A stretch of 64,000 bases of DNA, taken from assembly GCF_004335085.1 (NCBI RefSeq), contig NZ_RQRS01000002.1, positions 124,001 through 188,000 on the forward strand, in the 5' to 3' direction. Below, in pieces: positions 4,390 to 63,664 of the stretch; the stretch's first letter is position 1; every line of letters begins with the position of its first letter. The position numbers were made by a program, and so were the translations under genes. The notes beneath the pieces are model-generated. The model saw only the letters and a list, made by a program, of their open reading frames with translations. It searched no databases and had not been told where the DNA came from. The stretch comes from Pedobacter nototheniae. GTDB lineage: Bacteria > Bacteroidota > Bacteroidia > Sphingobacteriales > Sphingobacteriaceae.

Positions 4390-6198
4390 ATGTGTAGAAT
4401 AGCCGGACTTATAAATAAAAATCTTCCCGTTGAAGAACTTGAGGCAACTATTAAATTAATGTGCAATAGTATGGCTCATGGTGGACCTGATGGTGAAGGT
4501 TTTTTTGTGAATAGTACAAATGGCATTGCATTTGGGCATAGGCGGCTTGCAATTATTGATTTAAGCACTACCGGAAAGCAACCCATGTTTTATAACCAAA
4601 ATGAACTGGTTATAACTTACAATGGTGAAATTTTTAATTACTTGGATTTAAAGGCAGAACTAATAAAATTGGGTTTTGAATTTAAGAGCAGTTGCGATAC
4701 CGAAGTTATACTTGCCGCTTACGCCGCTTGGGGTACTAAAAGCTTTGAAAGGCTCAAAGGAATGTTTGCCTTCGCGTTGTACGACACAAAGAATAACCAA
4801 ACATTTTTAGCTCGAGATTCATCAGGTATTAAACCTCTTTATTATTCTGTTTTAAACAATCAATTGGTTTTCGCTTCAGAAATCAGAGCATTCAAAAATA
4901 TTAAACCTGCATACAAGGAAAACCCTGATTGGAAGATTTATTTTTTAGCTTTTGGGCATATTCCAGAACCTTATACAACCCTAACGGATGTGGAAATGTT
5001 AACTAAAGGCCAGTATTTAACCTATTATCATGAAACAAACAAATTTGATATAAATTCTTTCTTACCGCAGCAAAGTAGTATTAAAATTGACGATAAACAG
5101 GAAGCAGAAGAAATTGTACATACTAGATTAAAAGAATCCGTTAAAAGGCATTTACTAGCTGATGCCCCTATTGGCGTATTTTTAAGCGGCGGCATTGATA
5201 GCAGTCTAATTACTTTGCTTGCAAATGAGCAACTTCCTTTAGAAAAAGATAATCTTTTAAATACCATATCCATAAACTTTGAAGAAACCGCTTTTTCAGA
5301 AAAACCTTATCAGGATATTATTAGCGCACAAATAAACGCGAAACATAGCGAATATACCATTACCAAAGCTATTTTTGATTCACTGTTTCCTTCTGCAATA
5401 AATGCAATGGATCAACCCACTACTGATGGAATAAATTCCTGGTTTATTAATTATTTTGCAAATAAAAATGGTCTAAAAGCAGTTTTATCAGGCATTGGTG
5501 CCGATGAACAATTTGGCGGATACCCATCTTTCAAAAGGATGAAACTGATCGACCTTTTAAGTAAGCTTCCAACTTTCATTCTAAAATCAACCATTAATTT
5601 TAGTAAACCTTCACTAAAGAGAGCTTATTACCTAAGCTATAAAAATACTGTTGGCAAATATCTTTTTTTAAGAGGCATATTCGATCCCAAACAAATTGCC
5701 GACATTTTAAATCGCACATTATCAGAGGTTAACGAGGTACTAAAAGACATGAAATTGGCAGAACTTCCGACAGCCTTAAAACCCGAAGAACAGGCAAGTT
5801 GGCTTGAAACTAATATGTACATGCAAAATCAGTTGCTTAAAGATACCGATTCAATGAGTATGCAACATGGTGTGGAAGTAAGAGTACCCTTTTTGGATCA
5901 GGATTTACTAACGGCTTTAAAACTTATAAATAACGAACTGAAATTTAAAGGTGATAAGCCAAAACCTTTATTGGTTGATGCTTTTATTAAACTTTTACCT
6001 AACCAAATTTGGAACAGGTCAAAAATGGGTTTTACTTTTCCATTTCAAAATTGGTTAAAGGAAAATCCACAGTTTTTAAAACCAATGTTATCGTCTGATA
6101 ATAAAAACATCACTCAATTAGCTAATAATTTTAAACTTGGCAAACTGCATTGGTCTAAGGCAATTGCATTACACGTAATTGAAACATTTGGAGCCTAA
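4390..6198 (+). CDS. asnB: Asparagine synthase (glutamine-hydrolysing)
   Basis: A class II glutamine amidotransferase joined to an AMP-forming synthetase converts aspartate and glutamine to asparagine, or in sugar loci amidates other carboxylates. The start is fixed by MCRIAG, where Cys2 becomes the N-terminal nucleophile. Further glutaminase signatures are HGGPDGEGF, GHRRLAIIDLS and YNGEIFN. The synthetase pyrophosphate loop SGGIDS is at 266-271, and GIGADEQFGGY follows near 370. The length of 602 residues is normal. Placement inside a polysaccharide locus suggests a role in amidating a sugar acid or supplying amide nitrogen, as many such loci carry an asnB copy. The stop lies inside the next gene (20-nt overlap). 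Confidence 0.93.
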   Translation: MCRIAGLINKNLPVEELEATIKLMCNSMAHGGPDGEGFFVNSTNGIAFGHRRLAIIDLSTTGKQPMFYNQNELVITYNGEIFNYLDLKAELIKLGFEFKSSCDTEVILAAYAAWGTKSFERLKGMFAFALYDTKNNQTFLARDSSGIKPLYYSVLNNQLVFASEIRAFKNIKPAYKENPDWKIYFLAFGHIPEPYTTLTDVEMLTKGQYLTYYHETNKFDINSFLPQQSSIKIDDKQEAEEIVHTRLKESVKRHLLADAPIGVFLSGGIDSSLITLLANEQLPLEKDNLLNTISINFEETAFSEKPYQDIISAQINAKHSEYTITKAIFDSLFPSAINAMDQPTTDGINSWFINYFANKNGLKAVLSGIGADEQFGGYPSFKRMKLIDLLSKLPTFILKSTINFSKPSLKRAYYLSYKNTVGKYLFLRGIFDPKQIADILNRTLSEVNEVLKDMKLAELPTALKPEEQASWLETNMYMQNQLLKDTDSMSMQHGVEVRVPFLDQDLLTALKLINNELKFKGDKPKPLLVDAFIKLLPNQIWNRSKMGFTFPFQNWLKENPQFLKPMLSSDNKNITQLANNFKLGKLHWSKAIALHVIETFGA

Positions 6199-7303
6199 AA
6201 TTCTTTTTTTAACGTTAAATACCTTTAGCCTAACTGGTGGGATTGAGCAGGTGTGCAAAACATTTGCTAAAACACTATCAGATATTAAAGCTGAAGAAAA
6301 GATTAAGTCTTTTTCCATCCTCTCTATGTACGACGATGAAGCAGACTTAAAATATATAGAAGCGAACTCATTTAAAGGTTACAAGGGTAAACAAATAAGT
6401 TTTGGTTTGGCAGCAGTAAAGCAGGGTTTAAATGCAAATACACTAATATTAAGCCACATTCACTTACTTGTTTTTGCTAGAATCCTTAAAAAATTAAACC
6501 CTAAAATCCGCATTATCCTCTTAGCCCACGGTATAGAAATATGGAATAACCTATCAACCTGGAAAAAGGACTTATTAAATAAGATAGAAATATGGTCGGT
6601 TAGTAATTATACAGCAAACCAACTGATTAATAAAATTAATATCTCACCAAAAAACATTCATGTCTTAAATAATAGTCTTGATCCATTTTTTGATCAACCC
6701 AAAGAAAAGGTAAAACCACAATTACTTTTAAAAAAATATAATATAAACGAAACACAAAAAGTGATTTTAACCGTATGTAGATTATCTTTTTCGGAGCAAT
6801 ATAAAGGTTATGACCTTGTGATTCAGAGCCTCAAAGATCTAATAAAAGCTTATCCCAATTTACTTTACATAATGGTTGGCAAAGCTGATATTGCCGAACA
6901 GGACCGCATCGATTCGTTAATTAAGCTGTGTAAACTCGAAAAAAATGTTATTTGCACAGGCTTTATATCAGATGATGACCTTATTTCACATTATCAATTG
7001 GCCGATATATTTATTATGCCTAGTAAAAGTGAAGGATTTGGGCTTGTTTATTTAGAAGCTGCAGCTTATGGCTGTTCAGTAATTGCAGGCAATAAAGATG
7101 GAAGTACTGATGCATTATTAAATGGTAAAATTGGGCAAATGGTAGATCCAGAAAATACCGACGCAATTTATCAGGCTATGCTCTACAGCCTAAGTAATCC
7201 CTTAACATTGCAACAGATAAAAGCGCAGCAGTTGCTTACTCAGCAGCATTTTTCTTACCAGAAGTACAAAAAAAATATTGTTAAATTATTGCAACATAAT
7301 TAA
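6179..7303 (+). CDS. Glycosyltransferase family 4
   Basis: GT-B fold retaining glycosyltransferase that adds one sugar to the growing glycan at the cytoplasmic membrane face. The N-terminal half starts with PKILFLTLNTFSLTGGIEQV, the donor-side glycine loop. The C-terminal half carries VGKADIAEQ, CTGFISDDDLISHY and the EX7E motif region PSKSEGFGLVYLEA. The only start that keeps the first strand is TTG at 6179 (or TTG at 6188), overlapping asnB by up to 20 nt, so the two genes are probably translationally coupled. Sugar specificity cannot be read from the sequence. Confidence 0.87.
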   Translation: MKHLEPKILFLTLNTFSLTGGIEQVCKTFAKTLSDIKAEEKIKSFSILSMYDDEADLKYIEANSFKGYKGKQISFGLAAVKQGLNANTLILSHIHLLVFARILKKLNPKIRIILLAHGIEIWNNLSTWKKDLLNKIEIWSVSNYTANQLINKINISPKNIHVLNNSLDPFFDQPKEKVKPQLLLKKYNINETQKVILTVCRLSFSEQYKGYDLVIQSLKDLIKAYPNLLYIMVGKADIAEQDRIDSLIKLCKLEKNVICTGFISDDDLISHYQLADIFIMPSKSEGFGLVYLEAAAYGCSVIAGNKDGSTDALLNGKIGQMVDPENTDAIYQAMLYSLSNPLTLQQIKAQQLLTQQHFSYQKYKKNIVKLLQHN

Positions 7304-46470: not shown

Positions 46471-48342
46471 TTAGCGCTTATTTTTAGTATCAACCTCATA
46501 GTTGTACAATAAAGAACGATTATCTTTTTTAAGGTATTTAGATTTATATTTTTTGTGTAAATCTGAGGATTGTTTTACACCATTTACGATTAAATTATCT
46601 TTATTCAACTTATAAGATAGCTTGTTGGTTTGAGTAACGATGCCATCGCTTAACAATTCGCTGTTAATTTCGTCTGTATAATCTTTTCCATCTCCATTAG
46701 TTACCGTAACTGATTTGTAGGTATGCTCGCTAGTTGAGTTTGTTTTGGCCTCACCATTTTTTAAAGTAACTGGTGGCAACGGTGGCGATGGTGGCATAAC
46801 TGCTGTTACAGGAGTTATTGGCGTTGGCGGTGTGGGTGGTGTAGTTGAGTTTCTGGGCATAGGAATGGCGATGGGTGTTGGCGGTGTTGGTGGCACAGGC
46901 AAGCTCTTTCCTTCTTTTGCATATCGCTTGGTATCTTCTACATATTGCGCTGCATCTTTAGCAAATTGCGCTGCATCTCTGGCATATTGTGCTGCATCAG
47001 CCGCGTAACGCTTTTGATCTTCTTCGTACCTTTGTTCATGTTTAGTAGCTTTTGCATCATTTATAGCACGTTGCTTATCTGCCGCTTGTAAAGCTTTATC
47101 ATTTGCCAATATTTGCTCATCCATAGCACGTACTTTATCAGAAATTGCTTTTTCAAGATCCTCTGGGGATTGATTTTTTCCGGCAATGCTTGTTTCTTTG
47201 CTTTTAACGGTTTTATTCTTTTTAGTTGTGTCTTGTACTATTGTGTTTTCAATAGTAGTAATTGCAGTAGAAATGTGTTTTGTAATGATGCTTTTTGCTT
47301 GTCCTGCGTTTTTAAATGCAGCCGTACACAGCACTACAAAAACGAGTGCTACGGTTAAAATTGTCTTTTCCATTTTATTTAGGGTTGATTTGGTATCGAA
47401 TAACATTCTGCTGGCTCTATGCAACAGATTATTTTTTTTGCCGGTAATGGCCATAGCGTAGTTGGGTACACTTTGCTTAAATTCCTGACAAAAGATTAGG
47501 GCTTTAACATAGTTTTTACGATCGTTAACACAGGCAATCGCTAAATCATCACAACAGTGTTCTCTTTCGGTTTTAATTAATTTTGAAACCCATAATACGG
47601 CTGGGTTAAAGAAAAATACGATTTCTATAAAGCTTTGTAGAAAATTTACCAGGTAATCTTTACGTTTAATATGCGCAAGTTCATGAGAGAGTATTGCTTC
47701 TACTTCGGGGCTTGATAAGCCATTTATTAATCCAAGGGGAATTAAAATTAAAGGTTTAAAATGTCCAACAGCCATAGGTACATCCGCCAAGCCTGATTGT
47801 AATAATTTAACAGTTTGATTGATGCCTAATTTCGCGGCAAGTTCTTCTAATTTTTCGTCCCATTTTCGCCCTGCAGCATAAACCTGGTTATTTCTTAAAT
47901 GATGAATGGTATTAACCCCTACCAGTAATTGAATACTTTTTACGCAGATAATTAAAAACCAAATCATTACTATTTGATAGTTATAGGCATTCCAAAGGGA
48001 GCATATTTTATCAAGGTTTATTTGTAGCTCAGCCTTTGTTCCATCAGATATATGCTGGTTTAAGGTATTTGAAACATTGATCGTATTTACATTAACCAGC
48101 GTTTGTGCTGCTACCGATGCTCCTAATTCATTATAAAATATAACGCCAATAGCAATTACAAAAAGTGCCAGGCAAGCTGTTAGTAAATTATAACGGGTTG
48201 TTGCGCTTGCCTTGCGTGTGCTAAATATAACTATACCGCTAACAAATGCCAGGATAACACCAAGCCAAAGCGAGTGAAAAAGTGTGGTACCTAAAGCGTG
48301 AAGCCAGTTTTGAGGTAAAAGATTAAATATTTTAAATTCCAT
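46471..48342 (-). CDS. M56 family (BlaR1/MecR1-like) membrane metallopeptidase
   Basis: A signal-transducing zinc protease that normally relieves repression by cutting a BlaI-type regulator. Membrane helices lie near 20-40, 53-70, 123-145 and 328-345. The zinc motif HELAH is at 220-224, and EHCCDDLA (261-268) supplies further ligands. A classical BlaR1 has a penicillin-binding sensor after the last helix. This protein instead has an alanine/tyrosine heptad-like repeat (438-478), a proline-rich segment (481-524) and a small C-terminal domain, so its signal is probably not a beta-lactam. The repressor gene lies 34 bp upstream. Confidence 0.9.
   Translation of the reverse strand: MEFKIFNLLPQNWLHALGTTLFHSLWLGVILAFVSGIVIFSTRKASATTRYNLLTACLALFVIAIGVIFYNELGASVAAQTLVNVNTINVSNTLNQHISDGTKAELQINLDKICSLWNAYNYQIVMIWFLIICVKSIQLLVGVNTIHHLRNNQVYAAGRKWDEKLEELAAKLGINQTVKLLQSGLADVPMAVGHFKPLILIPLGLINGLSSPEVEAILSHELAHIKRKDYLVNFLQSFIEIVFFFNPAVLWVSKLIKTEREHCCDDLAIACVNDRKNYVKALIFCQEFKQSVPNYAMAITGKKNNLLHRASRMLFDTKSTLNKMEKTILTVALVFVVLCTAAFKNAGQAKSIITKHISTAITTIENTIVQDTTKKNKTVKSKETSIAGKNQSPEDLEKAISDKVRAMDEQILANDKALQAADKQRAINDAKATKHEQRYEEDQKRYAADAAQYARDAAQFAKDAAQYVEDTKRYAKEGKSLPVPPTPPTPIAIPMPRNSTTPPTPPTPITPVTAVMPPSPPLPPVTLKNGEAKTNSTSEHTYKSVTVTNGDGKDYTDEINSELLSDGIVTQTNKLSYKLNKDNLIVNGVKQSSDLHKKYKSKYLKKDNRSLLYNYEVDTKNKR
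46771..47031 (-). repeat. Repetitive Ala/Tyr heptad-like and Pro-rich coding segment of the M56 gene
   Basis: Within the M56 protein, residues 438-478 repeat a seven-residue pattern (RYAADAA, QYARDAA, QFAKDAA, QYVEDTK, RYAKEGK), suggesting an alpha-helical rod. Residues 481-524 are built from PPTPPTP-type units. The DNA shows the matching short repeats. The segment is extracytoplasmic if the last helix is at 328-345. Confidence 0.75.
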
Positions 48343-48376: not shown

Positions 48377-48766
48377 TTAATCCATGCTATCCAATAGCCT
48401 CTTAATCTCTTCTATATCTGATTTTGATGTTTTTTCGTTCCCTAAAAGTTGCATCATTAATTTTGAAGCCGAACCTTTATAAAGGGTATTTACAAAACGA
48501 TCCAGTAATTGATCTTTCGTTTTCTCCTCTGCCTCAACCGGAATGTAGATGTGTTTCATCTGACTTTCATCGCGTTTTAAGATTCCCTTTTCTGCCAAAA
48601 TTTGCATCTGTTTAAGCGTAGAAGTATAGTTAACCTCTCGTTGCTCATTCAATTTATCATTTACAAACCTAACCGTTGAAGGGCCAAATTCCCACAATAC
48701 CTGCAATATTTCTAGCTCGGCTTTAGTAGGTTCAGGGAGGTTATTTTCAGTTTGAGTAACTTTCAT
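48377..48766 (-). CDS. BlaI/MecI/CopY family transcriptional repressor
   Basis: A winged-helix repressor of 129 residues. The N-terminal domain (PTKAELEILQVLWEFGPSTV, then VNYTSTLKQMQILAEKGIL) is followed by a C-terminal dimerisation helix (FVNTLYKGSASKLMMQLLG, IEEIKRLLDSMD). It is the first gene of an operon with the M56 protease and the outer-membrane barrel protein. A perfect dyad 10 bp upstream of its start (48776-48793) is the likely operator, so it should repress its own operon until the protease inactivates it. Confidence 0.93.
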   Translation of the reverse strand: MKVTQTENNLPEPTKAELEILQVLWEFGPSTVRFVNDKLNEQREVNYTSTLKQMQILAEKGILKRDESQMKHIYIPVEAEEKTKDQLLDRFVNTLYKGSASKLMMQLLGNEKTSKSDIEEIKRLLDSMD

Positions 48767-51628: not shown

Positions 51629-53596
51629 TTACTGCTTAACGATAGTAAATTCAGTTCTTCTGTTTAATTGGTGCTCTGCTGGATTGCATTTTACCCCATT
51701 TGCACATTTATTTAATAACCTGGTTTCTCCATAACCAACAGCTGTAATTCTGTTTTTACTAATTCCTCTATCAATAATGTATTGCACTGCGGCATCTGCT
51801 CTTCTTTGAGATAAGGTAAGATTGTATGCATCATTTCCTCGGCTATCTGTGTGTGATCCTAATTCTATCCATATAGTAGGATTATCCTTCATTATTTTCA
51901 CCAGTTTGTTTAACTCTACCGCTGCATCTGGGCGGATATTTGATTTATCGAAATCGTAGTAAATATTTTCCAGTTTAATGGCTTTATTAATTTCTATGGC
52001 TTCGAGGAATAAATCTTTTTTAAGAATAGTTGATGCGGTTAAACCTACTGTAGTAACTGAAGATCCATCGCTTCTGAAATTGGTTTTTTCTCCTATTAAA
52101 AGGTAATCAGCATTTTTTTCAAGGTTAAACTTAAACTTACCGCTTTCATCAGTTTCTACCTTTAATCCAGATCCATCGGTTTTATTTAAAGTTACAATGG
52201 CATTGCTTAATGGTTGATTGGTATTTTTGTTATAAACCGTTCCGGTTAACTTAAAGGCTAAAACCAGTTGCTGCGTAAAGCTGTAAATATCATCTCCTCC
52301 TAAACCATCAACACGATTTGAGGAGAAAAAACCTGTGGTTGCCGTACTTAAATTAAAGGTAAAGTCATCTTGTGGAGAGTTAATTGGGTAACCCAAATTT
52401 TGAGGTTCAGAAATTTTTCCACCTACAAGCTTTGAAGTGAAAATATCCAATCCGCCCATTCCTACTCTACCATCGCTACTGAAATAAAAGTTATTTTCGG
52501 CATCAAAAAATGGACTACGTTCATTTCCTTCGGTATTAACATCAGCTAAATTAATGGGTAAACCCCAATCTCCGGCGTCAGTTTTTTGACTTACATATAA
52601 ATCCGCCCCACCTTTTCCACCGGGCATGTTTGAGCTAAAGTATAAGCTTTGTCCGTCGGCAGTAATAAAAGGATCACCTACTGAATAATCGTTCACTTTG
52701 TTATAGGCAAAAGGTACTATGGCACCCCATTTCCCTGAAGCATCTTTTTTACTGCTGTAAACTTCAACATTAACTGTTGCTTGCTTGCCTTTAAGAATTT
52801 TTACTTTTGTGTAATCTAATTTTTCAGGAATACGGGTTAATGTAAAATACATTTCATCACCGTTTTGTGTAAAACTGGCTGGCCCAACATGATAATCCGT
52901 TCCGGCATTTATAGGAAACAATGAAATACTATCCGAACCTATCTTTTGGTAAAGTTTTAAATAGTGGTTTCCTGTCCACCCGTAAATATTTTTATTAGGT
53001 TCTTTGGCACCATCAAATTTCAAAAATGGCTTTTCTTCACTTTGATTGTCTTTGCCTTTAATAGCTCTATCTGAAGAAAACACAATCATTCCTTTTTGTT
53101 GTATTGCGCCCCAGTCTGATTGTGGGCTGTTTAATCTTTTTTCATTATTAATGACTACCAATTTTGGTTCTTTCATCCAATGGATGGCAGAATCGCAGGA
53201 ACGTAACCACATGCTTTTTAATGATGGGCTTAAGTTTTTATTTAAATCTGCGTATTTATTGTATTGTATTTTGGCTTCGCTATATTTTGAATTGGTTTGC
53301 AATGCTTTTGCATATTCCAATATATTTTCTGGCGAACTTTTTTCCATTCCTGCTGCAATGGCATACCAACTTTCTGTTTGTTTAAAATTACTTTGATATT
53401 TATAGCAAGCGCCTAAACGTTCTGCTGCATGCAGGGTAGCTTTTTTCTTATATGCTTGCTCATAAAGGTCTATGGCTTTTTGGTAATTATATTGTTCAAA
53501 CTCTTTATCGGCTTCATTTAATACATATTGCGCCTTAACTTTTGCCTGAAAGCCAAGTAAAACTAAAACGCTAATGATTAATATATTTAACTTCAT
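51629..53596 (-). CDS. TPR-PD40-CRD-OmpA outer-membrane protein (PorE-like)
   Basis: A 655-residue envelope protein. After the signal peptide (ends near VKAQ, residue 22) come TPR-like helices (about 30-125), a PD40/WD40-like beta-propeller (about 150-445; DGQSLYFSSNMPGGKGGADL, FYFSSDGRVGMGGLDIF), a carboxypeptidase-regulatory-like domain (about 450-535: AFKLTGTVYNKNTNQPL) and a C-terminal OmpA peptidoglycan-binding domain (about 545-655: ELGSHTDSRGNDAYNLTLSQ). This order is that of PorE-type proteins linked to type IX secretion. It is the last gene of a five-gene operon that includes a PorP/SprF-like partner. Confidence 0.9.
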   Translation of the reverse strand: MKLNILIISVLVLLGFQAKVKAQYVLNEADKEFEQYNYQKAIDLYEQAYKKKATLHAAERLGACYKYQSNFKQTESWYAIAAGMEKSSPENILEYAKALQTNSKYSEAKIQYNKYADLNKNLSPSLKSMWLRSCDSAIHWMKEPKLVVINNEKRLNSPQSDWGAIQQKGMIVFSSDRAIKGKDNQSEEKPFLKFDGAKEPNKNIYGWTGNHYLKLYQKIGSDSISLFPINAGTDYHVGPASFTQNGDEMYFTLTRIPEKLDYTKVKILKGKQATVNVEVYSSKKDASGKWGAIVPFAYNKVNDYSVGDPFITADGQSLYFSSNMPGGKGGADLYVSQKTDAGDWGLPINLADVNTEGNERSPFFDAENNFYFSSDGRVGMGGLDIFTSKLVGGKISEPQNLGYPINSPQDDFTFNLSTATTGFFSSNRVDGLGGDDIYSFTQQLVLAFKLTGTVYNKNTNQPLSNAIVTLNKTDGSGLKVETDESGKFKFNLEKNADYLLIGEKTNFRSDGSSVTTVGLTASTILKKDLFLEAIEINKAIKLENIYYDFDKSNIRPDAAVELNKLVKIMKDNPTIWIELGSHTDSRGNDAYNLTLSQRRADAAVQYIIDRGISKNRITAVGYGETRLLNKCANGVKCNPAEHQLNRRTEFTIVKQ

Positions 53597-53634: not shown

Positions 53635-54600
53635 TTAGAAATACCTCGGTGTCATTAAGCGGATATTTCTTTTATTGAAGAAATATCCGATTGAAATTTC
53701 GTGTGTACCGCCACTGTAACCTTGCAATGGGCCGATAGAAAAATCGTAAGCATAACCAATACGTAAATTGCTGCTTGCAAAAAACTGTGCAGCTACAACA
53801 CCAGAATTAAGTTTGCTTAAATCTTTTTGCAAATAGCTTTTATCATATAATTTTACGCCTGTACGGTAAGAACCTCCAAGCCATACCTTATCGGCAATAA
53901 TAAAAAAGGCATTTAAATCTAAACTGGTTGGACCTCCACGGTCATCTTTTAATAAAAATGATGGTTTTAACTGAAGATCTTCATTAATAGGAAAAAGCAT
54001 TCCGGCGGTTAAATAATAATGAGGCTTTGGCTGTGCTATAAAGGCATAACGATCAATATTAATGTATTGAGAAACCAAATTATCTGCCGAGAAACCAGCA
54101 TAAAAACGATCATTTGAAAAGTAAACTCCTGCTCTTGCATCGGGCACAATAGTACTTTGAATGCCCACTGGTTGGTTTACCTCAAAATCATTAGGGTTTA
54201 ACATAGAACCATCAATACCTAATTGTACAGCACCTACACCAACTCCAAAAGCTAATCTTGATGATCCATCATCGTTCATTGGAATGCGATATGCGTAGTT
54301 TGCATATGCCGCAAGGTTACGTTGTGCACCAATCCTATCGCTAGAAATTTGTAAGGCTAAACCAACATTACCGTTATTTGCAATTGCATCTACAGCAACA
54401 GACATGGTGGTTGGAGAACCTTGAATACCCGTCCACTGGTTACGGTAAAAAGCGTGAAGGTTTAATTGTTCTTTATAACCCGCATAGGCAGGATTAATAT
54501 AAATTCCATTAAACATGTACTGACTAAACTGTGCATCTTGTTGTGCTTTCGCCAACATGATGCTTAAGGTTAGTATTGTAAGTATGAATATCTTTTTCAT
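53635..54600 (-). CDS. PorP/SprF family type IX secretion outer-membrane protein
   Basis: A 321-residue beta-barrel protein with signal peptide (ends near LAKA, residue 19) and the family start QQDAQFSQYMFNGIYINPAY followed by GYKEQLNLHAFYRNQW. The C-terminus GTHEISIGYFFNKR is also typical. SprF/PorP proteins help deliver or attach partner proteins carrying the type B C-terminal sorting domain. Such a partner lies directly upstream (54686-55990), a conserved pairing across Bacteroidota. Confidence 0.93.
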   Translation of the reverse strand: MKKIFILTILTLSIMLAKAQQDAQFSQYMFNGIYINPAYAGYKEQLNLHAFYRNQWTGIQGSPTTMSVAVDAIANNGNVGLALQISSDRIGAQRNLAAYANYAYRIPMNDDGSSRLAFGVGVGAVQLGIDGSMLNPNDFEVNQPVGIQSTIVPDARAGVYFSNDRFYAGFSADNLVSQYINIDRYAFIAQPKPHYYLTAGMLFPINEDLQLKPSFLLKDDRGGPTSLDLNAFFIIADKVWLGGSYRTGVKLYDKSYLQKDLSKLNSGVVAAQFFASSNLRIGYAYDFSIGPLQGYSGGTHEISIGYFFNKRNIRLMTPRYF

Positions 54601-54685: not shown

Positions 54686-55990
54686 TTATTTTTTAAATGC
54701 TCTAATCAAAGTGATGTATCCTTTAAATACCTGCCACTCAGATCCTGCGGCTTCTTTTACTCTAAGTACGTAAAAATATGTCCCCTCGTTTAAGCCCTCA
54801 CCAGTCCAATTATTTTGGTAGCCCGTAGCTTTATATACTTCATTTCCCCAACGGTTAACAATAACCAAATCATTCTGTGCAAATAATTCAAGGCCTCTAA
54901 TTTCGAAGGCATCGTTGGTACCATCTCCATTTGGAGTGTATAAATTAGGAATAAACAAGGTTGAGCCTGAAATTGCAAGTTTAGTAAAGTAACCGCCATT
55001 GGCTGCCATATCAGTTGCTATTGCCACATTATTACGGGTGTGTACGCCAACTGCGGGATTAGTACCTTTCAAAATATCCCATTTATCGCCACTTATGTAG
55101 CGGGCAATTGCTGCATTTTCATCTTTAAATAAACTTCCATTGGTGTTGCTGTTGTGTTGCAAAATCATGTTTGCAGTAATGGCTGGGGAGCCATAAATAT
55201 GCCATACACGATCCATTCCCAATGCCGGATTTTTAATCGCTTTATTGGCGCCAACAAAATCCTGAACGCTTACAAACAATTTACCAGCACTACCTGGGGT
55301 TAATGTGGCAGGTGTATAATCTCCTTCTTCAATACCCACTGGAAACACAAAGCCATCGCTACCTGCATAATCCTTAATCATATGGCCAGCAATGCTGTTA
55401 CCGGTAACTACCATTCTGGCTTTACTGTAATTGGCAATTTTACCCGAGCTGTTAAATGCAAGGTTGTGCCCATTAAGGATAATATCTGCACGATCTACAG
55501 CTAAATCTAAAGTACCGCCAACATTTAACTCTGCTGATAAAGCACCTGAAGGATTTGCTGTGTTATAACCAGGATCGGCAACATCTGCCAGCAATATATT
55601 TTCTGCATTACGATGTTCTATAATCAGGTTGATAAAGTTGCCGTTGTTGCCATCAATATTTGTTGGGCCTGAGGCCATACCTGGATAGTATGGGTTTGTA
55701 CCAGGATTATAAATAATAATTTTGCCAGTGCCACTAAAGGTTGCCCCTGGAGCTATCCATACATTTTTACTGTAAATTTCTAAAGTACCATTAATCTCCC
55801 AGTTTGCCTTTGGACCAAAATATGTGCCTTCGCTAAAGCGTTGCTCCGTCGTGCCTGCTGCAACTACAACGGTAGATTCATCTACTGTCATACTGCCAGC
55901 ACCGGTTTGAGCATACGCTGTTAAACCCGCCAGAGCGAATATGGTGGATAATAATATTTTTGATATGATCGTCATGTGATATGATTTCAT
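54686..55990 (-). CDS. Secreted protein with type B (gliding motility-associated) C-terminal sorting domain
   Basis: A 434-residue secreted protein. The signal peptide ends near AYAQ (about residue 28). The mid-section is beta-rich ([36 protein letters not shown]), similar to Bacteroidota surface proteins. From about 345 the type B sorting domain starts: [20 protein letters not shown], then [19 protein letters not shown] and [11 protein letters not shown]. That domain directs export by the type IX system and surface attachment. The SprF-like gene follows by 85 bp. An initiating ATG at 55990 is used; an ATG 15 nt inward (MTIISKILL) is also possible. Confidence 0.9.
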
Positions 55991-55992
55991 AA

Positions 55993-57450
55993 TTATTTTT
56001 TCTTAGCCTTACTTGGCAACATTGGGTTTGTAATAGCCGGCCCTTGTATAAAAATTTTATGATCTTCTACTTCTCCACCCGGAGTTGCACTTGTTGGAGA
56101 TAGAAGATCGCTTTGGTTTTTTCCGTAGCGCAGGCGTACATAAGTGCTTCTAATAACGCGGCTGTAAGGAACTGTCCATACTAAGTTTACTGAAGTTTGA
56201 TTAGCAGGTGCTGCAACGGTAACTCTTTCGCTATCATCAAAAACACCGTTCTGATCAAAATCTATCCAACCAGAAATGTAAGCATCTTCTGAACCTTTAT
56301 ATGGAATGGTAGCCGTAATGATGTTGCCAGGCATATAATTAGCTTTGTAAGAAAAGCTTTTATATTTAGCAGGCCATGCATCTTCTTCATTCACACCGGC
56401 GCTTCCATTATTATTATCGCCCATTGCATCTTTACTAAATAAAGAACCTGGATCCATATCTGGTCCTACAGAACCTAAATAATCTGATGTTGGTGGAATA
56501 AGTGCACCTGGAGTATAGCTACTTGTATTTAAATTAGTTGGTGTTCCGGTAGCGATAGTCGCACTAATTCCATCACTTGATATTGCCAGGGCATCAATCA
56601 TGTGTAATGGCGAGCCGTAAGATGCTGGTGCATCGCCACCATCAACTCCTGGAGGCAATAAGCCTAAGGCAATAGCCGTTAAACCACCGCCTTTTAATGT
56701 TACACTAAAAGAAACATCGAAGGTATTGGCTGCATAAGCTGTTTGATTGAAAGTTAAAAATGAAACCGCAGCGGTATTATCATCATTACCCTTAACAAAT
56801 TCCATTCTTTGTTGTGTAGTACCTGTTACATTTACCTTTCTAACCTGATATGGATTTGTGTTTGCTAAATTTTTCTGTAACTCTACAATATTCCACTTTC
56901 CATCTGCGGTAGCATTAAAGTATTCGCTAGCAGCTAAAGATTCGGCATCACCAATTACCATACCTGCCAGTTTAACTGGGATACCATCTAAAGTAGCAGT
57001 ACAGGTTACCGTAAAGGTTGATAATCCTCCATCGGTACCATTTCTTATGCCATTAACAAGTTGATTATTGGTACCTGTGCCACCAATGTTATACATATCA
57101 TCCATTGAATCTCCTGAGTAGTTACCTGGTGCATAGCTTCTAATATCGCTGCCTACAATACCAGATATTACGGCTTTTACACAAAGGAAACGACCACCAC
57201 CTACGTCGATAGAGGCATAAGATGCAGAGTTATTTGCTAATGCCTGATTATGTCTTCCGTAAGGATAAGTTGTAACATTTGCTAATGTTGAACCCCAGGT
57301 TAGCCATAATACCTGATTTTTATTTTTGCTTGTTCCACCAGTTGCAAAGGCTGCAGTTTTTGGCTGTGTAGGAAAACATTGTGCTAATGTTGCTTCACTA
57401 AAAGCAACCAATAACAATAGGAATGATAGTTTAAATATTATTCTTTTCAT
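55993..57450 (-). CDS. Secreted GEVED-domain protein (CshA-type surface protein)
   Basis: A secreted protein of 485 residues when started at ATG 57450 ([20 protein letters not shown], a clear signal peptide); an ATG at 57471 would add seven residues ahead of it and overlap the previous stop. The N-terminal half is CshA-like non-repeat type sequence ([40 protein letters not shown]). The C-terminal half includes [19 protein letters not shown], acidic calcium-site-like loops ([14 protein letters not shown]) and a GEVED motif ([11 protein letters not shown]) near the end. It is probably an adhesin or surface-layer component secreted with the operon products. Confidence 0.82.
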
Positions 57451-57451
57451 C

Positions 57452-60400
57452 TTATTTAACTGCAAAAACAATATTCATAAATGAGCCCGCTGTAACATCT
57501 GCATTTGGTTGTACGGTATACGTTAATACACCAGCTGCTGATACGGCTACTGAAGAAAAAACTGTAGTATCATACCAGGTTACATAAAAATATAATTGGT
57601 TGGCAGCAACCACAGGTAAAGCTGGTGCGCCTGCACTACTTACCGCTGGGGTACCAAATTGTTTGTTATATCTAGCGTATAAGTTTATTGTACCAAATGA
57701 TTCGCCAGTAATACCCGATTCTGCAACAAACTGATCTGCAGCTGTTGGAACAATAATAGATGGCATATAAAAGAATTTAGGCATTGCTGCTGCAACTTGT
57801 TTTAATACGCCAGTACTTGGATCTGCTACTACAATTTTATCAGTTGTTGCACCAGGCTGTAACCCGCTAATGGCTAATGTATTTGCTGGTGTAGTTGATC
57901 CTCCTGTTGCAATTGTTGTTGCAGTTGTTAATGCGCCACCCAGTTGAATATTGTTTGCAGTAGATTTATTTAAACCATTATTAGCGGTTATTGCATTTGT
58001 TATGGTTGTAGCAGGAACTGAAAGCGATCCATCCGTTCCAACTACAACAGTTCCATCTCCTTGTTTTACAACACCTAATGCCGTACCGTTTGCGGTTGGA
58101 ACGTTTACTGTATATTGTGTATTACCAGTTGCATTTGGTGCTGCTGGTGTTACAGTAGTATTTGTTCCGGCTATAACCGTTGTTGTTTTTTGTGCATTTG
58201 TAATTACACTTGCAGGAACTGAAAGCGCTCCATCTGCGCCAACCACAACTGTTCCATCTCCTTGTTTTACAACACCTAATGCTGTTCCATTTGCTGTTGC
58301 TACATCTACCTTATAAGTACTTGTATTACCACTTACTGTTGGGGCACCTACTGTTGTGTTGGTACCATTGGCTAAAACTGTTTTTAATTGTCCTGCTTGA
58401 ATAGCGGCATCTTTTACCTCTACTTTATATTCTGTATTGTTTGCATTGCCTGCACTTGCTGCAGACGTAACCGTTGTTGTTGTACCGCTAATTACTGAAC
58501 TTGTTTTTTGTCCGGCTTGGATAGCTGGAGTTAAATCTAATGCAGTAGTTGAAGCTACACCGTTTACTGTAGTTACTAATTTATTTGCAGCGTTAAGGCT
58601 TAAATCATTAGAGTTTATAATTTTAACCGGATTAGCGGTTACTCCGTTTACTTTTGTTGTTAAATCATTTATTGTAGAAGTATTTGATACAGTTGTAGCT
58701 GGAACCAAAGTAGATTGATCTACCCATGATCCTGTGTTACCTGCTCCTACTACCATTACTTGGCCGGCTGTACCGCCTTTAATCTGACTAGCGTTTAAGT
58801 TTAATTTTGTTTCATCAACATCAACACTGAAAGCTTTTAATGCCGCACCTGTTGGCGTACCTGCTAAAATAACTTTATTGCTTGCCGCAGTTACATCTGC
58901 TCCAGTTACTGAGCTTGCTGGTAAATTACCATAACTAACACCTCCCGTTCCATTTGCAATAGCAACTTGCCCATTGGTTGCTCCTGTTGAGTTTAACATA
59001 GAAGCTGTAATGGATTTATCGTTGATGGTTGCCTTTACATTTTTTAAGGTTGCACCTGTTCCATCGTTAAAGGTAATTTGATCTGATGTTAAATTGCCTG
59101 ATCCAGTTACATTGGTTGCGCTAACTGTTGGTGTAGCACCAATCCAGCTTTTAGTTGTTGCATCATAAGTTAATACCTGGTTTGCTGTCGGTGCTGTTGC
59201 ACTTACAGCGGTACCCTGAATTTTTTCTACTTTGGTTGCATTTGCTGCGCCAGTTACATCGCCTGCTAAAGAAATATTAGCTAAATCTGCCGATACCGTA
59301 TAAGTCGTAACATCATTTGCTGTAGCTGTGGCAACTGTTGTACCTGTACCTGCTGCTACAACAGTAGTTTTTTGGGCCGATTGAATTGCTCCTTTTAAAT
59401 CTACAGCTACTCCTGTTGTACCGTTAACGGTTGTTGTTAATGATGTTCCGGTTAATGTATTGCTTACCGAAGTTGCATTTGCTTTGCTTACCCAGCTTCC
59501 TTTGCCATCTGTACCTACAACAAAAACATCACCTGCAGTACCACCAGCAACCTGGTTTGCATTTAATAAACCGCCAATGTTTTGTAAGCTTAATTTCGAT
59601 TCGTTTACATCAACACTTGCTGCTTTTAATAAAGCGCCTGTACCACCTGCAACCGTTACCTTATCAGATGCTGCACTTAAATCTTTACCATCTGTAGCGT
59701 TACTTACTGAAACAGATTTATAACTAACTGTTCCATCTGCATTTACGGTAGCAACCTGACCTGCTGTTGCACCAGTTGCATCTAATTTCGCAGCTGTAAT
59801 TGATTTATCTTTAATAGTTAAAGTTGCATCTGCTAAAACTGAGTTTGCTAAAGTTGTACCTCCATTTACCTGAATAATTCCGTCAGTTGTAATTCCTTTT
59901 CCTGAAGTAAGCGTTGCAGGATTTACAGAAATTGTTCCTGTAGCAGCATCAATTGATAATCCTGTACCTGGTTTTACTGCCCCTGTTGTTGTTGCAGTTG
60001 CATTGTTTACGCTAACATTATAATCGGTAGTGTTACCACTTACTGTTGATGCAACAGTTGTATTTGTACCGTTAGATAACGTTGTTTTTAATTGCCCTGC
60101 TTGAATGGCGGCATCTTTTACCTCTACTTTATATTCTGTATTGTTTGCATTGCCCGCACTTGCTGCAGAAGTAACCGTTGTTGTTGTACCGCTAATTACT
60201 GAACTTGTTTTTTGCCCGGCTTGGATAGCTGGAGTTAAATCTAATGCAGTAGTTGAAGCTACACCGTTTACTGTAGTTACTAATTTATTTGCAGCGTTAA
60301 GGCTTAAATCATTAGAGTTTATAATTTTAACCGGATTAGCGGTTACTCCGTTTACTTTTGTTGTTAAATCATTTATTGTAGAAGTATTAGATACAGTTGT

Positions 60401-63400
60401 AGCTGGAACCAAAGTAGATTGATCTACCCATGATCCTGTGTTGCCTGCTCCTACTACCATTACTTGGCCGGCTGTACCGCCTTTAATCTGACTAGCGTTT
60501 AAGTTTAATTTTGTTTCATCAACATCAACACTGAAAGCTTTTAATGCCGCACCTGTTGGTGTACCTGCTAAAATAACTTTATTGCTTGCCGCAGTTACAT
60601 CTGCTCCAGTTACTGAGCTTGCTGGTAAATTACCATAACTAACACCACCCGTTCCATTTGCAATAGCAACTTGTCCGTTGGTTGCTCCTGTTGAGTTTAA
60701 CATAGAAGCTGTAATGGATTTATCGTTGATGGTTGCCTTTACATTTTTTAAGGTTGCACCTGTTCCATCGTTAAAGGTAATTTGATCTGATGTTAAATTG
60801 CCTGATCCAGTTACATTGGTTGCGCTAACTGTTGGTGTAGCACCAATCCAGCTTTTAGTTGTTGCATCATAAGTTAATACCTGGTTTGCTGTCGGCGCTG
60901 TTGCACTTACAGCGGTACCCTGAATTTTTTCTACTTTGGTAGCATTTGCTGCGCCAGTTACATCGCCAGCTAAAGAAATATTAGCTAAATCTGCCGATAC
61001 CGTATAAGTGGTAACATCATTTGCTGTAGCTGTGGCAACTGTTGTGCCTGTACCTGCTGCTACAACAGTAGTTTTTTGGGCCGATTGAATTGCTCCTTTT
61101 AAATCTACAGCTACTCCAGTTGTACCGTTAACGGTTGTTGTTAATGATGTTCCGGTTAATGTATTGCTTACCGAAGTTGCATTTGCTTTGCTTACCCAGC
61201 TTCCTTTGCCATCTGTACCTACTACAAAAACATCGCCTGCAGTACCACCAGCAACCTGGTTTGCATTTAATAAACCGCCAATGTTTTGTAAGCTTAATTT
61301 CGATTCGTTTACATCAACACTTGCTGCTTTTAATAAAGCGCCTGTACCACCTGCAACCGTTACCTTATCAGATGCTGCACTTAAATCTTTACCATCTGTA
61401 GCGTTACTTACTGAAACAGCTTTATAACTAACTGTTCCGTCTGCATTTACGGTAGCAACTTTACCTTCGTCAGTAGCGGCGGCTGTTAATTTATTTGCTG
61501 TAACAGATTGATTATTTATTTTATCTGTTGTTACTGCATTATTTGCCAATTTATCTGTTGTAATTGCACCATCTTTTACTTCTACTTTATACGCAGTATT
61601 ATTACCTGCAACAGTTGAAGTGGCAGATGTTGTTGTTCCATCTACAACACTTGTAGTTAATTGATTCTTGGTAACTAAACCACCTAGATCAATTACATTA
61701 GATTGTTTATTTTCGTCAGTATAAGTAAGGGTATTTTTAGTTGCATCGTATACTAAACTTGTTAAAGTTTGTTCGGTGTTTACTAAATTTTTAATCGTTG
61801 TATAAAGATCTCCTTTATTGGTAATATTAGTAACGGCATCGCCAATTACATTAATATTTACCGCTTCATTTTTTTCGTTAGTATAAGTATAAGTTCCGTT
61901 TTTATTATCAACTAAAGTGGTAATTGTTTCGTGAGCCTTTACAAGTTGATCGATGTTAATGGTTTGAGTTTTACCAGTGTTATCTACATAAGTAAAGTTT
62001 GTACCATCATAAGATACATTGCCACCTGTGTTTTTTACAATGTTTTCAATAATCTGTTTTACAGTATTATCGTTTGCAATGGTTTGAAAATTATTGATTA
62101 CATCAGCAGGAACGTTGATTAAAGTAGTTTTTCCATCTTCTGCAGTATAAGTATAAGTCCCGTTTTTATTATCAACTAAAGTGGTAATTGTTTCGTGAGC
62201 CTTTACAAGTTGATCGATGTTAATGGTTTGAGTTTTACCCGTGTTATCTACATAAGTAAAGTTTGTACCATCATAAGATACATTGCCACCTGTGTTTTTC
62301 ACAATGTTCTCAATAATCTGTTTTACAGTATTATCGTTGGCAATTGCCTGAAAGTTATTAATTACATCAGCAGGAACGTTGATTAAAGTAGTTTTTCCAT
62401 CTTCTGCAGTGTAAGTGTAAGTTCCGTTTTTATTATCAACTAAAGTGGTAATTGTTTCGTGGGCTTTTACAAGTTGATCGATGTTGATGGTTTGAGTTTT
62501 ACCAGTGTTATCTACATAAGTAAAGTTTGCACCATCATAAGATACATTGCCACCTGTGTTTTTTACAATATTTTCAATAATCTGTTTTACAGTATTATCG
62601 TTTGCAATGGTTTGAAAATTATTGATTACATCAGCAGGAACGTTGATTAAAGTAGTTTTTCCGTTTTCTGAAGTATAAGTGTAAGTTCCGTTTTTATTAT
62701 CAACTAAAGTGGTAATTGTTTCGTGCGCCTTTACAAGTTGATCGATGTTGATGGTTTGAGTTTTACCTGTGTTATCTACATAAGTAAAGTTTGCACCATC
62801 ATAAGATACATTGCCACCTGTGTTTTTTACAATGTTTTCAATAATCTGTTTTACAGTATTATCGTTGGCAATTGTTTGAAAATTATTGATTACATCAGCA
62901 GGAACGTTGATTAAAGTAGTTTTTCCATCTTCTGCAGTATAAGTATAAGTTCCGTTTTTGTTATCAACTAAAGTGGTAATTGTTTCGTGAGCCTTTACAA
63001 GTTGATCGATGTTAATGGTTTGTGTTTTACCAGTGTTATCTACATAAGTAAAGTTTGCACCATCATAAGATACATTGCCTCCAGATGTTTTTACAATGTT
63101 CTCAATAATCTGTTTTACAGTATTATCGTTGGCAATGGTTTGAAAATTATTGATTACATCAGCAGGAACGTTAATTAAAGTAATTGTACCGTTTTCTGAA
63201 GTATATTTATAAGTTCCATTATTATTAACAAGTGTGGTTAAAGTTTCATTTTCTTTAACAACATTTTTTAAATTAATACTTACAGGATTATTGCTAGCAT
63301 CAAGATATGAAAGAATGTAAGTAGCTGGATTATATTTAATATTGGCTGCAGCGCCATCTCCAGCTCCGGCTAAAATCCATTTTGTACCATCATTATAATA

Positions 63401-63664
63401 GATACCAGGAACAACATCAGCAATGGTTTGGGTATTGTAAATCATCATACCTGCTACGTGTGCAGATAATGGAGAAGCATTTGTAGTTGATTTTAATGCT
63501 ACTCTTGAATATAATAATCCTTTACTAGAACTCTCCAGTTCCAAAATTGCATCTTTGTTCGGAAGGTTACCATTAGCAACCGTACCGTCTTTTACCTTTT
63601 GTTGTGCAGAAGCAGCAAAAGCGCTTAACATAATTGCTAAACTAAAGATAAGGTGTCTTTTCAT
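57452..63664 (-). CDS. Giant repetitive secreted surface protein (2070 aa)
   Basis: First gene of the surface-protein operon. A signal peptide (MKRHLIFSLAIMLSAFAASA, cut before QQ) precedes a non-repeated head (about 22-148) resembling the start of Bacteroidota surface proteins. Then follow five 88-residue repeats (about 149-588; each with NVPADVINNFQ and YVDNTGKTQTINIDQLVKAH), a linker, two copies of a 458-residue block (736-1194 and 1304-1762; VSNTLTGTSLTTTVNGTTG), further Thr/Asn/Ala/Val-rich repeats, and a C-terminal globular domain (about 1955-2070) ending in NIVFAVK. I see no cysteine and no type IX sorting domain. It is probably a stalk, sheath or adhesin; exact role unknown. Confidence 0.88.
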   Translation of the reverse strand: MKRHLIFSLAIMLSAFAASAQQKVKDGTVANGNLPNKDAILELESSSKGLLYSRVALKSTTNASPLSAHVAGMMIYNTQTIADVVPGIYYNDGTKWILAGAGDGAAANIKYNPATYILSYLDASNNPVSINLKNVVKENETLTTLVNNNGTYKYTSENGTITLINVPADVINNFQTIANDNTVKQIIENIVKTSGGNVSYDGANFTYVDNTGKTQTINIDQLVKAHETITTLVDNKNGTYTYTAEDGKTTLINVPADVINNFQTIANDNTVKQIIENIVKNTGGNVSYDGANFTYVDNTGKTQTINIDQLVKAHETITTLVDNKNGTYTYTSENGKTTLINVPADVINNFQTIANDNTVKQIIENIVKNTGGNVSYDGANFTYVDNTGKTQTINIDQLVKAHETITTLVDNKNGTYTYTAEDGKTTLINVPADVINNFQAIANDNTVKQIIENIVKNTGGNVSYDGTNFTYVDNTGKTQTINIDQLVKAHETITTLVDNKNGTYTYTAEDGKTTLINVPADVINNFQTIANDNTVKQIIENIVKNTGGNVSYDGTNFTYVDNTGKTQTINIDQLVKAHETITTLVDNKNGTYTYTNEKNEAVNINVIGDAVTNITNKGDLYTTIKNLVNTEQTLTSLVYDATKNTLTYTDENKQSNVIDLGGLVTKNQLTTSVVDGTTTSATSTVAGNNTAYKVEVKDGAITTDKLANNAVTTDKINNQSVTANKLTAAATDEGKVATVNADGTVSYKAVSVSNATDGKDLSAASDKVTVAGGTGALLKAASVDVNESKLSLQNIGGLLNANQVAGGTAGDVFVVGTDGKGSWVSKANATSVSNTLTGTSLTTTVNGTTGVAVDLKGAIQSAQKTTVVAAGTGTTVATATANDVTTYTVSADLANISLAGDVTGAANATKVEKIQGTAVSATAPTANQVLTYDATTKSWIGATPTVSATNVTGSGNLTSDQITFNDGTGATLKNVKATINDKSITASMLNSTGATNGQVAIANGTGGVSYGNLPASSVTGADVTAASNKVILAGTPTGAALKAFSVDVDETKLNLNASQIKGGTAGQVMVVGAGNTGSWVDQSTLVPATTVSNTSTINDLTTKVNGVTANPVKIINSNDLSLNAANKLVTTVNGVASTTALDLTPAIQAGQKTSSVISGTTTTVTSAASAGNANNTEYKVEVKDAAIQAGQLKTTLSNGTNTTVASTVSGNTTDYNVSVNNATATTTGAVKPGTGLSIDAATGTISVNPATLTSGKGITTDGIIQVNGGTTLANSVLADATLTIKDKSITAAKLDATGATAGQVATVNADGTVSYKSVSVSNATDGKDLSAASDKVTVAGGTGALLKAASVDVNESKLSLQNIGGLLNANQVAGGTAGDVFVVGTDGKGSWVSKANATSVSNTLTGTSLTTTVNGTTGVAVDLKGAIQSAQKTTVVAAGTGTTVATATANDVTTYTVSADLANISLAGDVTGAANATKVEKIQGTAVSATAPTANQVLTYDATTKSWIGATPTVSATNVTGSGNLTSDQITFNDGTGATLKNVKATINDKSITASMLNSTGATNGQVAIANGTGGVSYGNLPASSVTGADVTAASNKVILAGTPTGAALKAFSVDVDETKLNLNASQIKGGTAGQVMVVGAGNTGSWVDQSTLVPATTVSNTSTINDLTTKVNGVTANPVKIINSNDLSLNAANKLVTTVNGVASTTALDLTPAIQAGQKTSSVISGTTTTVTSAASAGNANNTEYKVEVKDAAIQAGQLKTVLANGTNTTVGAPTVSGNTSTYKVDVATANGTALGVVKQGDGTVVVGADGALSVPASVITNAQKTTTVIAGTNTTVTPAAPNATGNTQYTVNVPTANGTALGVVKQGDGTVVVGTDGSLSVPATTITNAITANNGLNKSTANNIQLGGALTTATTIATGGSTTPANTLAISGLQPGATTDKIVVADPSTGVLKQVAAAMPKFFYMPSIIVPTAADQFVAESGITGESFGTINLYARYNKQFGTPAVSSAGAPALPVVAANQLYFYVTWYDTTVFSSVAVSAAGVLTYTVQPNADVTAGSFMNIVFAVK
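58381..59755 (-). repeat. 1.4-kb internal duplication, copy B
   Basis: This 1375-bp stretch is nearly identical, base for base, to 60085-61459, exactly 1704 bp away in the same orientation. Scattered single differences are mostly silent (for example ACCTCCC versus ACCACCC near 58942/60646). It codes residues about 1304-1762 of the giant protein. The high DNA identity indicates recent duplication or gene conversion. Confidence 0.9.
60085..61459 (-). repeat. 1.4-kb internal duplication, copy A
   Basis: Partner of 58381-59755 (offset 1704 bp, same direction), coding residues about 736-1194 of the giant protein. Similarity ends sharply at the right at GTAGCAAC, and fades gradually on the left. 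Between the two copies lie about 330 bp of non-duplicated coding sequence (59756-60084). Confidence 0.9.
61901..63220 (-). repeat. Five tandem 264-bp repeats (88 aa each)
   Basis: Five in-frame units of exactly 264 bp, coding residues about 149-588, with a degenerate sixth start afterwards (NGTYTYTNEKNEAVN). All units keep NVPADVINNFQ, IIENIVK and the NIDQLVKAHETITTLVDNK end. They differ by a few bases per copy (TSGG or NTGG, YDGAN or YDGTN). Such arrays can change copy number by recombination. Confidence 0.92.

Follow-up and report, generated by a model that had tools for sequence, protein, structure and literature searches.

A repeat-rich giant protein of Pedobacter nototheniae as the probable stalk of an adhesive fibre split over three genes

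A 64,000-nucleotide stretch of the Pedobacter nototheniae genome (contig NZ_RQRS01000002.1, positions 124,001 to 188,000; hereafter the window) contains a giant repetitive gene whose product, we propose with a probability of about 0.65, is the stalk of a fibrillar adhesin divided among three chains, onto which a separate head would dock through a short C-terminal motif. The gene order on the reverse strand is stalk, a head with CshA_NR2 and GEVED domains, a short protein with a type B C-terminal domain (CTD) of the type IX secretion system (T9SS), a PorP/SprF-family protein, and a PorE-like OmpA protein. Stalks ordinarily contain repeats; the interest lies in the split architecture and in the pairing of a conserved domain at the C-terminal end of the stalk, here named FIB_C, with the sequence [IV][TS]NPM[LI] at the C-terminus of the head (the NPM motif). 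The conserved N-terminal domain of the stalk is named FIB_N.

The link between stalk and head is clearest across related loci (loci, genomes, and contigs are numbered with L, G, and C, respectively). In 75 scored loci built around the short CTD protein, the putative anchor, the motif was present in 31 of the 34 with FIB_C and in 0 of the 41 without it. A similar split was seen in a subset of 62 loci from which the window and L030-L042, the loci fetched by FIB_C, had been removed (19 of 21 vs. 0 of 41; L013, also found through FIB_C, remains in this subset), and within ten genomes that carry both kinds of locus, where the motif accompanied 10 of 12 FIB_C loci and 0 of 11 others. L150 and L162, outside the 75-locus table, both have FIB_C and the motif. 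In another family, L184 holds a minimal two-gene form at 4901-6940 on the reverse strand: a 203-aa protein consisting of FIB_N and FIB_C, followed directly by a 472-aa protein ending VISNPMLPANAQ. No anchor N-domain was found in the fetched 17.5 kb of this locus; the motif therefore follows FIB_C rather than the anchor. In the whole set of open reading frames (ORFs), 37 of 753 closed ORFs of at least 150 aa match the motif pattern.

The loci were collected with the 310-aa N-domain of the anchor, which is largely confined to the family. Among 400 genomes of the order, 75 had a match at E 1e-8, some of them partial or weak; among 296 genomes of the phylum, the domain was found in the own genome and in three others, at 162, 46, and 41 bits (521 for the window). 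From 127 anchor places among the order genomes, the best 76 were considered and 75 taken, including three from the own genome, with G135:C16 left out; the 51 lower-scoring places lie outside the scoring (one, G213, was read in addition). The 75 scored loci are these 75 places minus L150 and L162, where no anchor ORF was called, plus L044 and L045, the only two with the anchor N-domain in a scan of named genomes that returned 80 loci, mostly sharing only the generic CTD. Because L156 duplicates part of L044 (Pedobacter sp. AK013; neither has FIB_C), the distinct loci number 74. L012 and L013 were found by stalk similarity, L013 through FIB_C, and both are kept in the subset of 62. L040, which has a CTD-only short ORF with PorP and OmpA next to FIB_C, and L043, which has no anchor, stand outside the table.

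The motif proteins adjoin the stalk, mostly between stalk and anchor, and share a C-terminus despite very different bodies, which carry CshA_NR2/GEVED, DUF11, PKD, a sub-threshold legume-lectin match, or no match. Among 36 heads selected for an NPx[LIM] match within their final 22 residues, NP is placed 9-15 residues before the C-terminus, and BLASTP (E 1e-5, 80 columns, last 25 residues removed) divides the bodies into six groups. The CshA_NR2 domain, present at 21 places in 18 of 201 family genomes, allows the same head to be compared in two settings. The nine short CshA_NR2 proteins (483-525 aa, stop to stop) all end in the motif, counting the variants NPT and NPG, none has a CTD pattern, and each of the nine shares its gene run with a FIB_C stalk gene (the window, L030, L031, L032, L033, L037, L042, L142, and L222). 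Twelve others are long (1,228-3,865 aa), and the ten with readable C-termini end in a type B CTD of their own, with no motif; the other two are interrupted by a gap (L211) or by a contig end (L212). Six long loci checked over 17-18 kb contained no FIB_C, FIB_N, or anchor N-domain. One extra NPx[LIM] match, in L224, lies near the end of a frame that is still open where the stretch ends. The same head is thus either part of one chain that includes an export signal or a short protein with the motif, beside a separate stalk.

L095 (1561-4896) and L187 (8751-11159, reverse strand) have FIB_C variants ending LINVVFVVK, and in both the next protein ends [TM]NRxxTxRVR in place of the NPM motif. These tails are a possible second class of docking tail, and the few cases available are suggestive of FIB_C variants and tails forming matched pairs. 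Among anchor operons without FIB_C (L012:9000-18335, L127, L129, L130, L133, and L134), the stalk ends in a coiled-coil-like region (by eye), the middle protein ends in a Cys-rich KLYNGTxWxC stretch, and there is a 167-190 aa protein ending VWxYWK; the stalk of L129 contains collagen. Such operons may represent a different head system on the same anchor.

Searched with its last 125 residues, the stalk matched 16 places in 12 of 151 family genomes, the own genome included, and in 12 of the 14 foreign stretches an anchor N-domain, a type B CTD, and PorP follow. In a class-wide sample of 395 genomes, FIB_C was found in four besides the own genome, and it is also present in L095, from Aquimarina atlantica. 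Member 1 of the FIB_C set had no Pfam or NCBIfam match, and the 16 FIB_C rows yielded four single-row matches in Pfam (best E 0.022) and none in NCBIfam; against PDB sequences, only matches of E 0.077 and worse were obtained, and no relatives were confirmed in viral contigs or plasmids. Assignment to a known domain was rejected on the lack of a convincing Pfam, NCBIfam, or PDB-sequence match. A fold search of PDB and BFVD gave no match at E 0.001, which decides nothing, as the model is weak and built from two sequences. Judged by these sequence comparisons, FIB_C is a previously undescribed domain of about 115 aa. FIB_N stalks are present in 33 of 38 untruncated anchor loci, of both FIB_C kinds.

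Table 1. Features of the stalk gene and of the genes that follow it (window coordinates).
Feature	Position	Strand	Details
Stalk gene	57452..63664	-	ORF of 2,070 aa, ATG start; heads a tight same-strand run
FIB_N	63350..63664	-	Conserved N-terminal domain, about residues 1-105; proposed base; low-confidence model only
Five 264-bp (88-aa) units	61880..63231	-	Tandem Repeats Finder
Large repeat, copy 1	60083..61459	-	1,377 bp; sequence comparison
Large repeat, copy 2	58379..59755	-	98.5% identical to copy 1
FIB_C	57452..57829	-	Conserved C-terminal domain, about 115 aa; proposed socket for the head
Head gene	55993..57450	-	485 aa; CshA_NR2 adhesive domain and GEVED; signal peptide by eye
NPM motif	55996..56034	-	C-terminus of head; from C-terminal sequence
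Anchor gene	54686..55990	-	310-aa N-domain and T9SS type B CTD
Type B CTD of anchor	54707..54955	-	CHU_C/TIGR04131 profile matches
PorP/SprF-family carrier	53635..54600	-	TIGR03519
PorE-like protein	51629..53596	-	OmpA domain; profile matches

The stalk has a signal peptide at its N-terminus (judged by eye), and profile searches with CHU_C and TIGR04131 found no T9SS CTD in its 2,070 residues; no CTD was found in the head either. The CTD of the anchor matches CHU_C at 85.7 bits (cut-off 27) and TIGR04131 at 48.3 (cut-off 35), and the carrier matches TIGR03519 at 261 bits (cut-off 90.55). This PorP contains no cysteine and hence no SprF-type twin-cysteine tail; among 66 PorP ORFs of the loci, none had two cysteines in the last 25 residues, and six had one. 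The PorE-like protein matches NF052230 at E 2.4e-107 and 360 bits, below the cut-off of 600, and scores higher on NF053607 (CHU_0125; 420, also below its cut-off of 620), while its OmpA domain is over cut-off. The original prediction had left the anchoring of the giant protein unexplained, which is fair for the single ORF alone but not once its neighbors are taken into account, as they encode a type B CTD protein, a PorP/SprF carrier, and a PorE-like protein.

In the proposed fibre, the T9SS would export the type B protein, the PorP-like barrel would hold it, and the PorE-like protein would connect it to peptidoglycan. This anchoring step is modelled on proposals for PG1035-PorP-PorE of P. gingivalis and Fjoh_3952-3951-3950 of F. 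johnsoniae. PG1035, a type B protein, and PorE are both binding partners of PorP, and it has been proposed that type B proteins accompanied by a PorE-like protein are static (PMC9143113). Static foci have been shown for Fjoh_3952, which is speculated to join its carrier Fjoh_3951 and the PorE-like Fjoh_3950 in one complex (PMC12618676). The stalk would be seated on the anchor N-domain via FIB_N, and the head would dock on FIB_C via its C-terminal [IV][TS]NPM[LI], as their association suggests. The stalk is probably a trimer, a proposal made because collagen repeats occur in the FIB_C stalks of L128 and L141. Without a recognized CTD, stalk and head would have to pass the outer membrane either attached to the anchor, which has one, or by another route, and fibre length would be set by the repeats. 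A more ambitious version, in which the single type B CTD on a small base both exports and anchors a pre-assembled three-chain fibre, with interchangeable heads plugging by the NPM motif into a FIB_C socket at the tip, is possible but distinctly doubtful.

Several known systems resemble parts of this arrangement. As in the PG1035 and Fjoh_3952 complexes, a type B CTD protein stands with a PorP/SprF barrel and a PorE-like protein, and the F. johnsoniae genes are also neighbors; here, in contrast, the CTD sits on a short protein that forms a generic base, and neither the stalk nor the head, each a chain of its own, has a recognized CTD. The combination of an NR2 and GEVED head, a long stalk, and a surface anchor is that of CshA-type fibrillar adhesins. 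The CshA_NR2 domain of CshA binds fibronectin, GEVED is a reported partner, and published descriptions of CshA-type adhesins place stalk and anchor on one chain with the head, the anchor being CHU_C in Bacteroidetes (PMC10952558), whereas here three genes are involved and a 485-aa head bears a C-terminal motif. SprB/SprF likewise pairs a giant repetitive surface protein with a PorP/SprF-family partner; however, SprB has its own CTD and moves, while the present locus has no CTD on the giant protein, no twin cysteines, and a PorE-like gene. Phage tail fibres and collagen-like trimeric fibres share fibre-type repeats with the stalk, and relatives with a FIB_C end have collagen shafts; in the own genome, the collagen-like part of a different stalk, on C73, matches PHROG tail-fibre families. 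Unlike phage tail fibres, the present protein has a signal peptide and a T9SS gene context, and no viral relative of FIB_C was found.

Several observations weigh against the split-fibre proposal. Export of stalk and head with the anchor is its weakest step, because a CTD is described as a requirement for T9SS cargo (PMC12618676), and no precedent was found in the literature for export of two chains that lack one. Binding of FIB_C to the motif is something we infer from gene association, and the Fisher p of 5e-18 for that association overstates independence, as the loci are related. Three scored loci have FIB_C and no motif: L013, which is cut by a contig end and whose presumed other half, on C31, carries two motif proteins; L035, which has no head gene; and L125, whose head lacks the motif. 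In L185 and L186, which lie outside the family, a CTD-like and a PorP-like protein (by eye) come immediately after FIB_C, and no motif protein was seen. Nor does every locus include the anchor step, since L184 lacks the anchor N-domain over the stretch given above, and L043 has FIB_C with no anchor or PorP found. The predicted structures are of low confidence, with a predicted local distance difference test (pLDDT) score of 69 for FIB_C and 57 for FIB_N, the latter model not being used.

The alternative that survives best is that the NPM motif, FIB_C, or both serve as new signals for T9SS sorting, each directing the export of the protein that carries it, and do not form a joint between head and stalk. 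Both lie at the extreme C-termini of proteins that have signal peptides (by eye) and no known CTD, and the exchange of motif for type B CTD between short and long CshA_NR2 proteins would also be expected of a sorting signal. However, a sorting signal on the head should not depend on the type of stalk, yet the motif was absent from all 41 FIB_C-negative loci; moreover, a tail of 9-15 residues is far shorter than the Ig-like CTDs described in the literature (PMC11285876), and the FIB_C model, although weak, is not a seven-strand sandwich but has four main strands plus helices. We regard this explanation as unlikely. A stalk secreted and anchored independently, among unrelated neighbors in an accidental operon order, is less probable still: L184 and L043 have no recognized anchor near the stalk, but the order is conserved over 75 loci, with PorP within reach downstream in 63 of 75 and OmpA in 51 of 75 (some stretches end early), and a FIB_N stalk recurs in 33 of the 38 untruncated loci. 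Least credible is a SprB-like mobile gliding adhesin, for which a large repetitive surface protein near PorP/SprF and type B CTD genes and the presence of SprA in the genome could be cited, but the giant protein has no recognized CTD of its own, the window PorP lacks the cysteines of SprF, whose normal movement along its track requires a C-terminal Cys-X-Cys (PMC12635249), and the PorE-like gene that follows is a proposed mark of static complexes.

The repeats are consistent with a stalk of variable length. The 264-bp array (5.1 copies, 94% matches), whose five units differ pairwise by 8-28 nt, and the large pair (offset 1,704 bp) lie within one cysteine-free ORF, much as originally predicted, and repeats of such length and identity exceed chance. 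The large copies had been described as almost identical including silent sites, with very recent duplication or active gene conversion as the cause. Identity at silent sites was not confirmed, and neither cause follows from the silent-site pattern. The copies agree at 1,356 of 1,377 positions (98.5%), and 20 of the 21 mismatches, which are scattered along the copy, are synonymous third-position changes, the remaining one being Ala/Ser; NG86 estimates are 0.001 for nonsynonymous (dN) and 0.060 for synonymous (dS) divergence. The pair is an older duplication under purifying selection, silently diverged while the protein was held nearly constant. Two real 1.4-kb copies are likely, because the third-position bias is unlike random sequencing error, and a simple assembly duplication was rejected as unlikely, as an artefactual duplicate would be identical. 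In L182, from a single-contig genome (G279), a homologous stalk (61% identical over residues 1-675 of the window stalk) has a 264-bp repeat over 4,000 bp at 97.3%, which supports the reality of such arrays and indicates that unit length is kept while copy number changes.

Between species, the 22 genes that combine FIB_N with FIB_C encode products of 247 to 2,475 aa, in support of the predicted surface protein with two repeat scales and a length that varies with its repeats; L222 has a frame of 2,537. Self-repeats of at least 150 bp occurred in 26 of 41 stalk-type genes scanned (22 with FIB_C, 19 without). Contigs end within 10 kb of the anchor gene on the stalk side in 29 of 60 loci and on the other side in 14 of 60; for contigs above 100 kb the figures are 15 of 41 and 2 of 41. 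This bias is consistent with repeat-rich stalks breaking assemblies. Pfam matches on the stalk (DUF903, POLO_box, Imm33, and others) had zero passing stretches and were treated as spurious, and no YadA-type C-terminal membrane anchor, the hallmark of trimeric autotransporter adhesins, was matched in Pfam, in the stalk or in the 16 FIB_C rows.

The own genome encodes SprA, 16 CHU_C domains over cut-off among 18 matches, and 14 PorP/SprF proteins over cut-off. It has two more clusters of the same plan, one on C73, with the different stalk mentioned above, and one at the ends of contigs C31 and C25, which is probably one locus broken in assembly. The sibling stalk gene of the latter (L011:9763-12824 and L013:9703-10947), probably split over C31/C25, has two motif-tailed proteins upstream. 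Elsewhere in the window, a BlaR1-type M56 peptidase gene at 46471-48342 on the reverse strand contains a 21-bp repeat (46933-46998) and adjoins a BlaI-like gene (by eye; 48377-48766, reverse strand), and a long same-strand run at about 4390-31473 on the forward strand resembles, by eye, a surface polysaccharide cluster.

Neither the C-terminal NPM motif nor a stalk without a CTD paired with a separate type B anchor was found in the literature searched, which is weak evidence, as most subscription papers were not covered. If the single CTD does export a pre-assembled three-chain fibre, this would be a modular, sortase-free head-on-stalk system and, in that literature, the first T9SS case with passengers that lack a CTD. 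The split architecture would explain how long surface fibres of Bacteroidota are assembled from proteins that lack the known secretion signal, would supply a rule for recognizing them, namely a FIB_C stalk, an NPM-tailed head, and a short type B anchor, and raises the question of whether several chains can be carried by one signal. Exchange of heads between species could also be explained by a short peptide tag linking adhesin heads to stalks.

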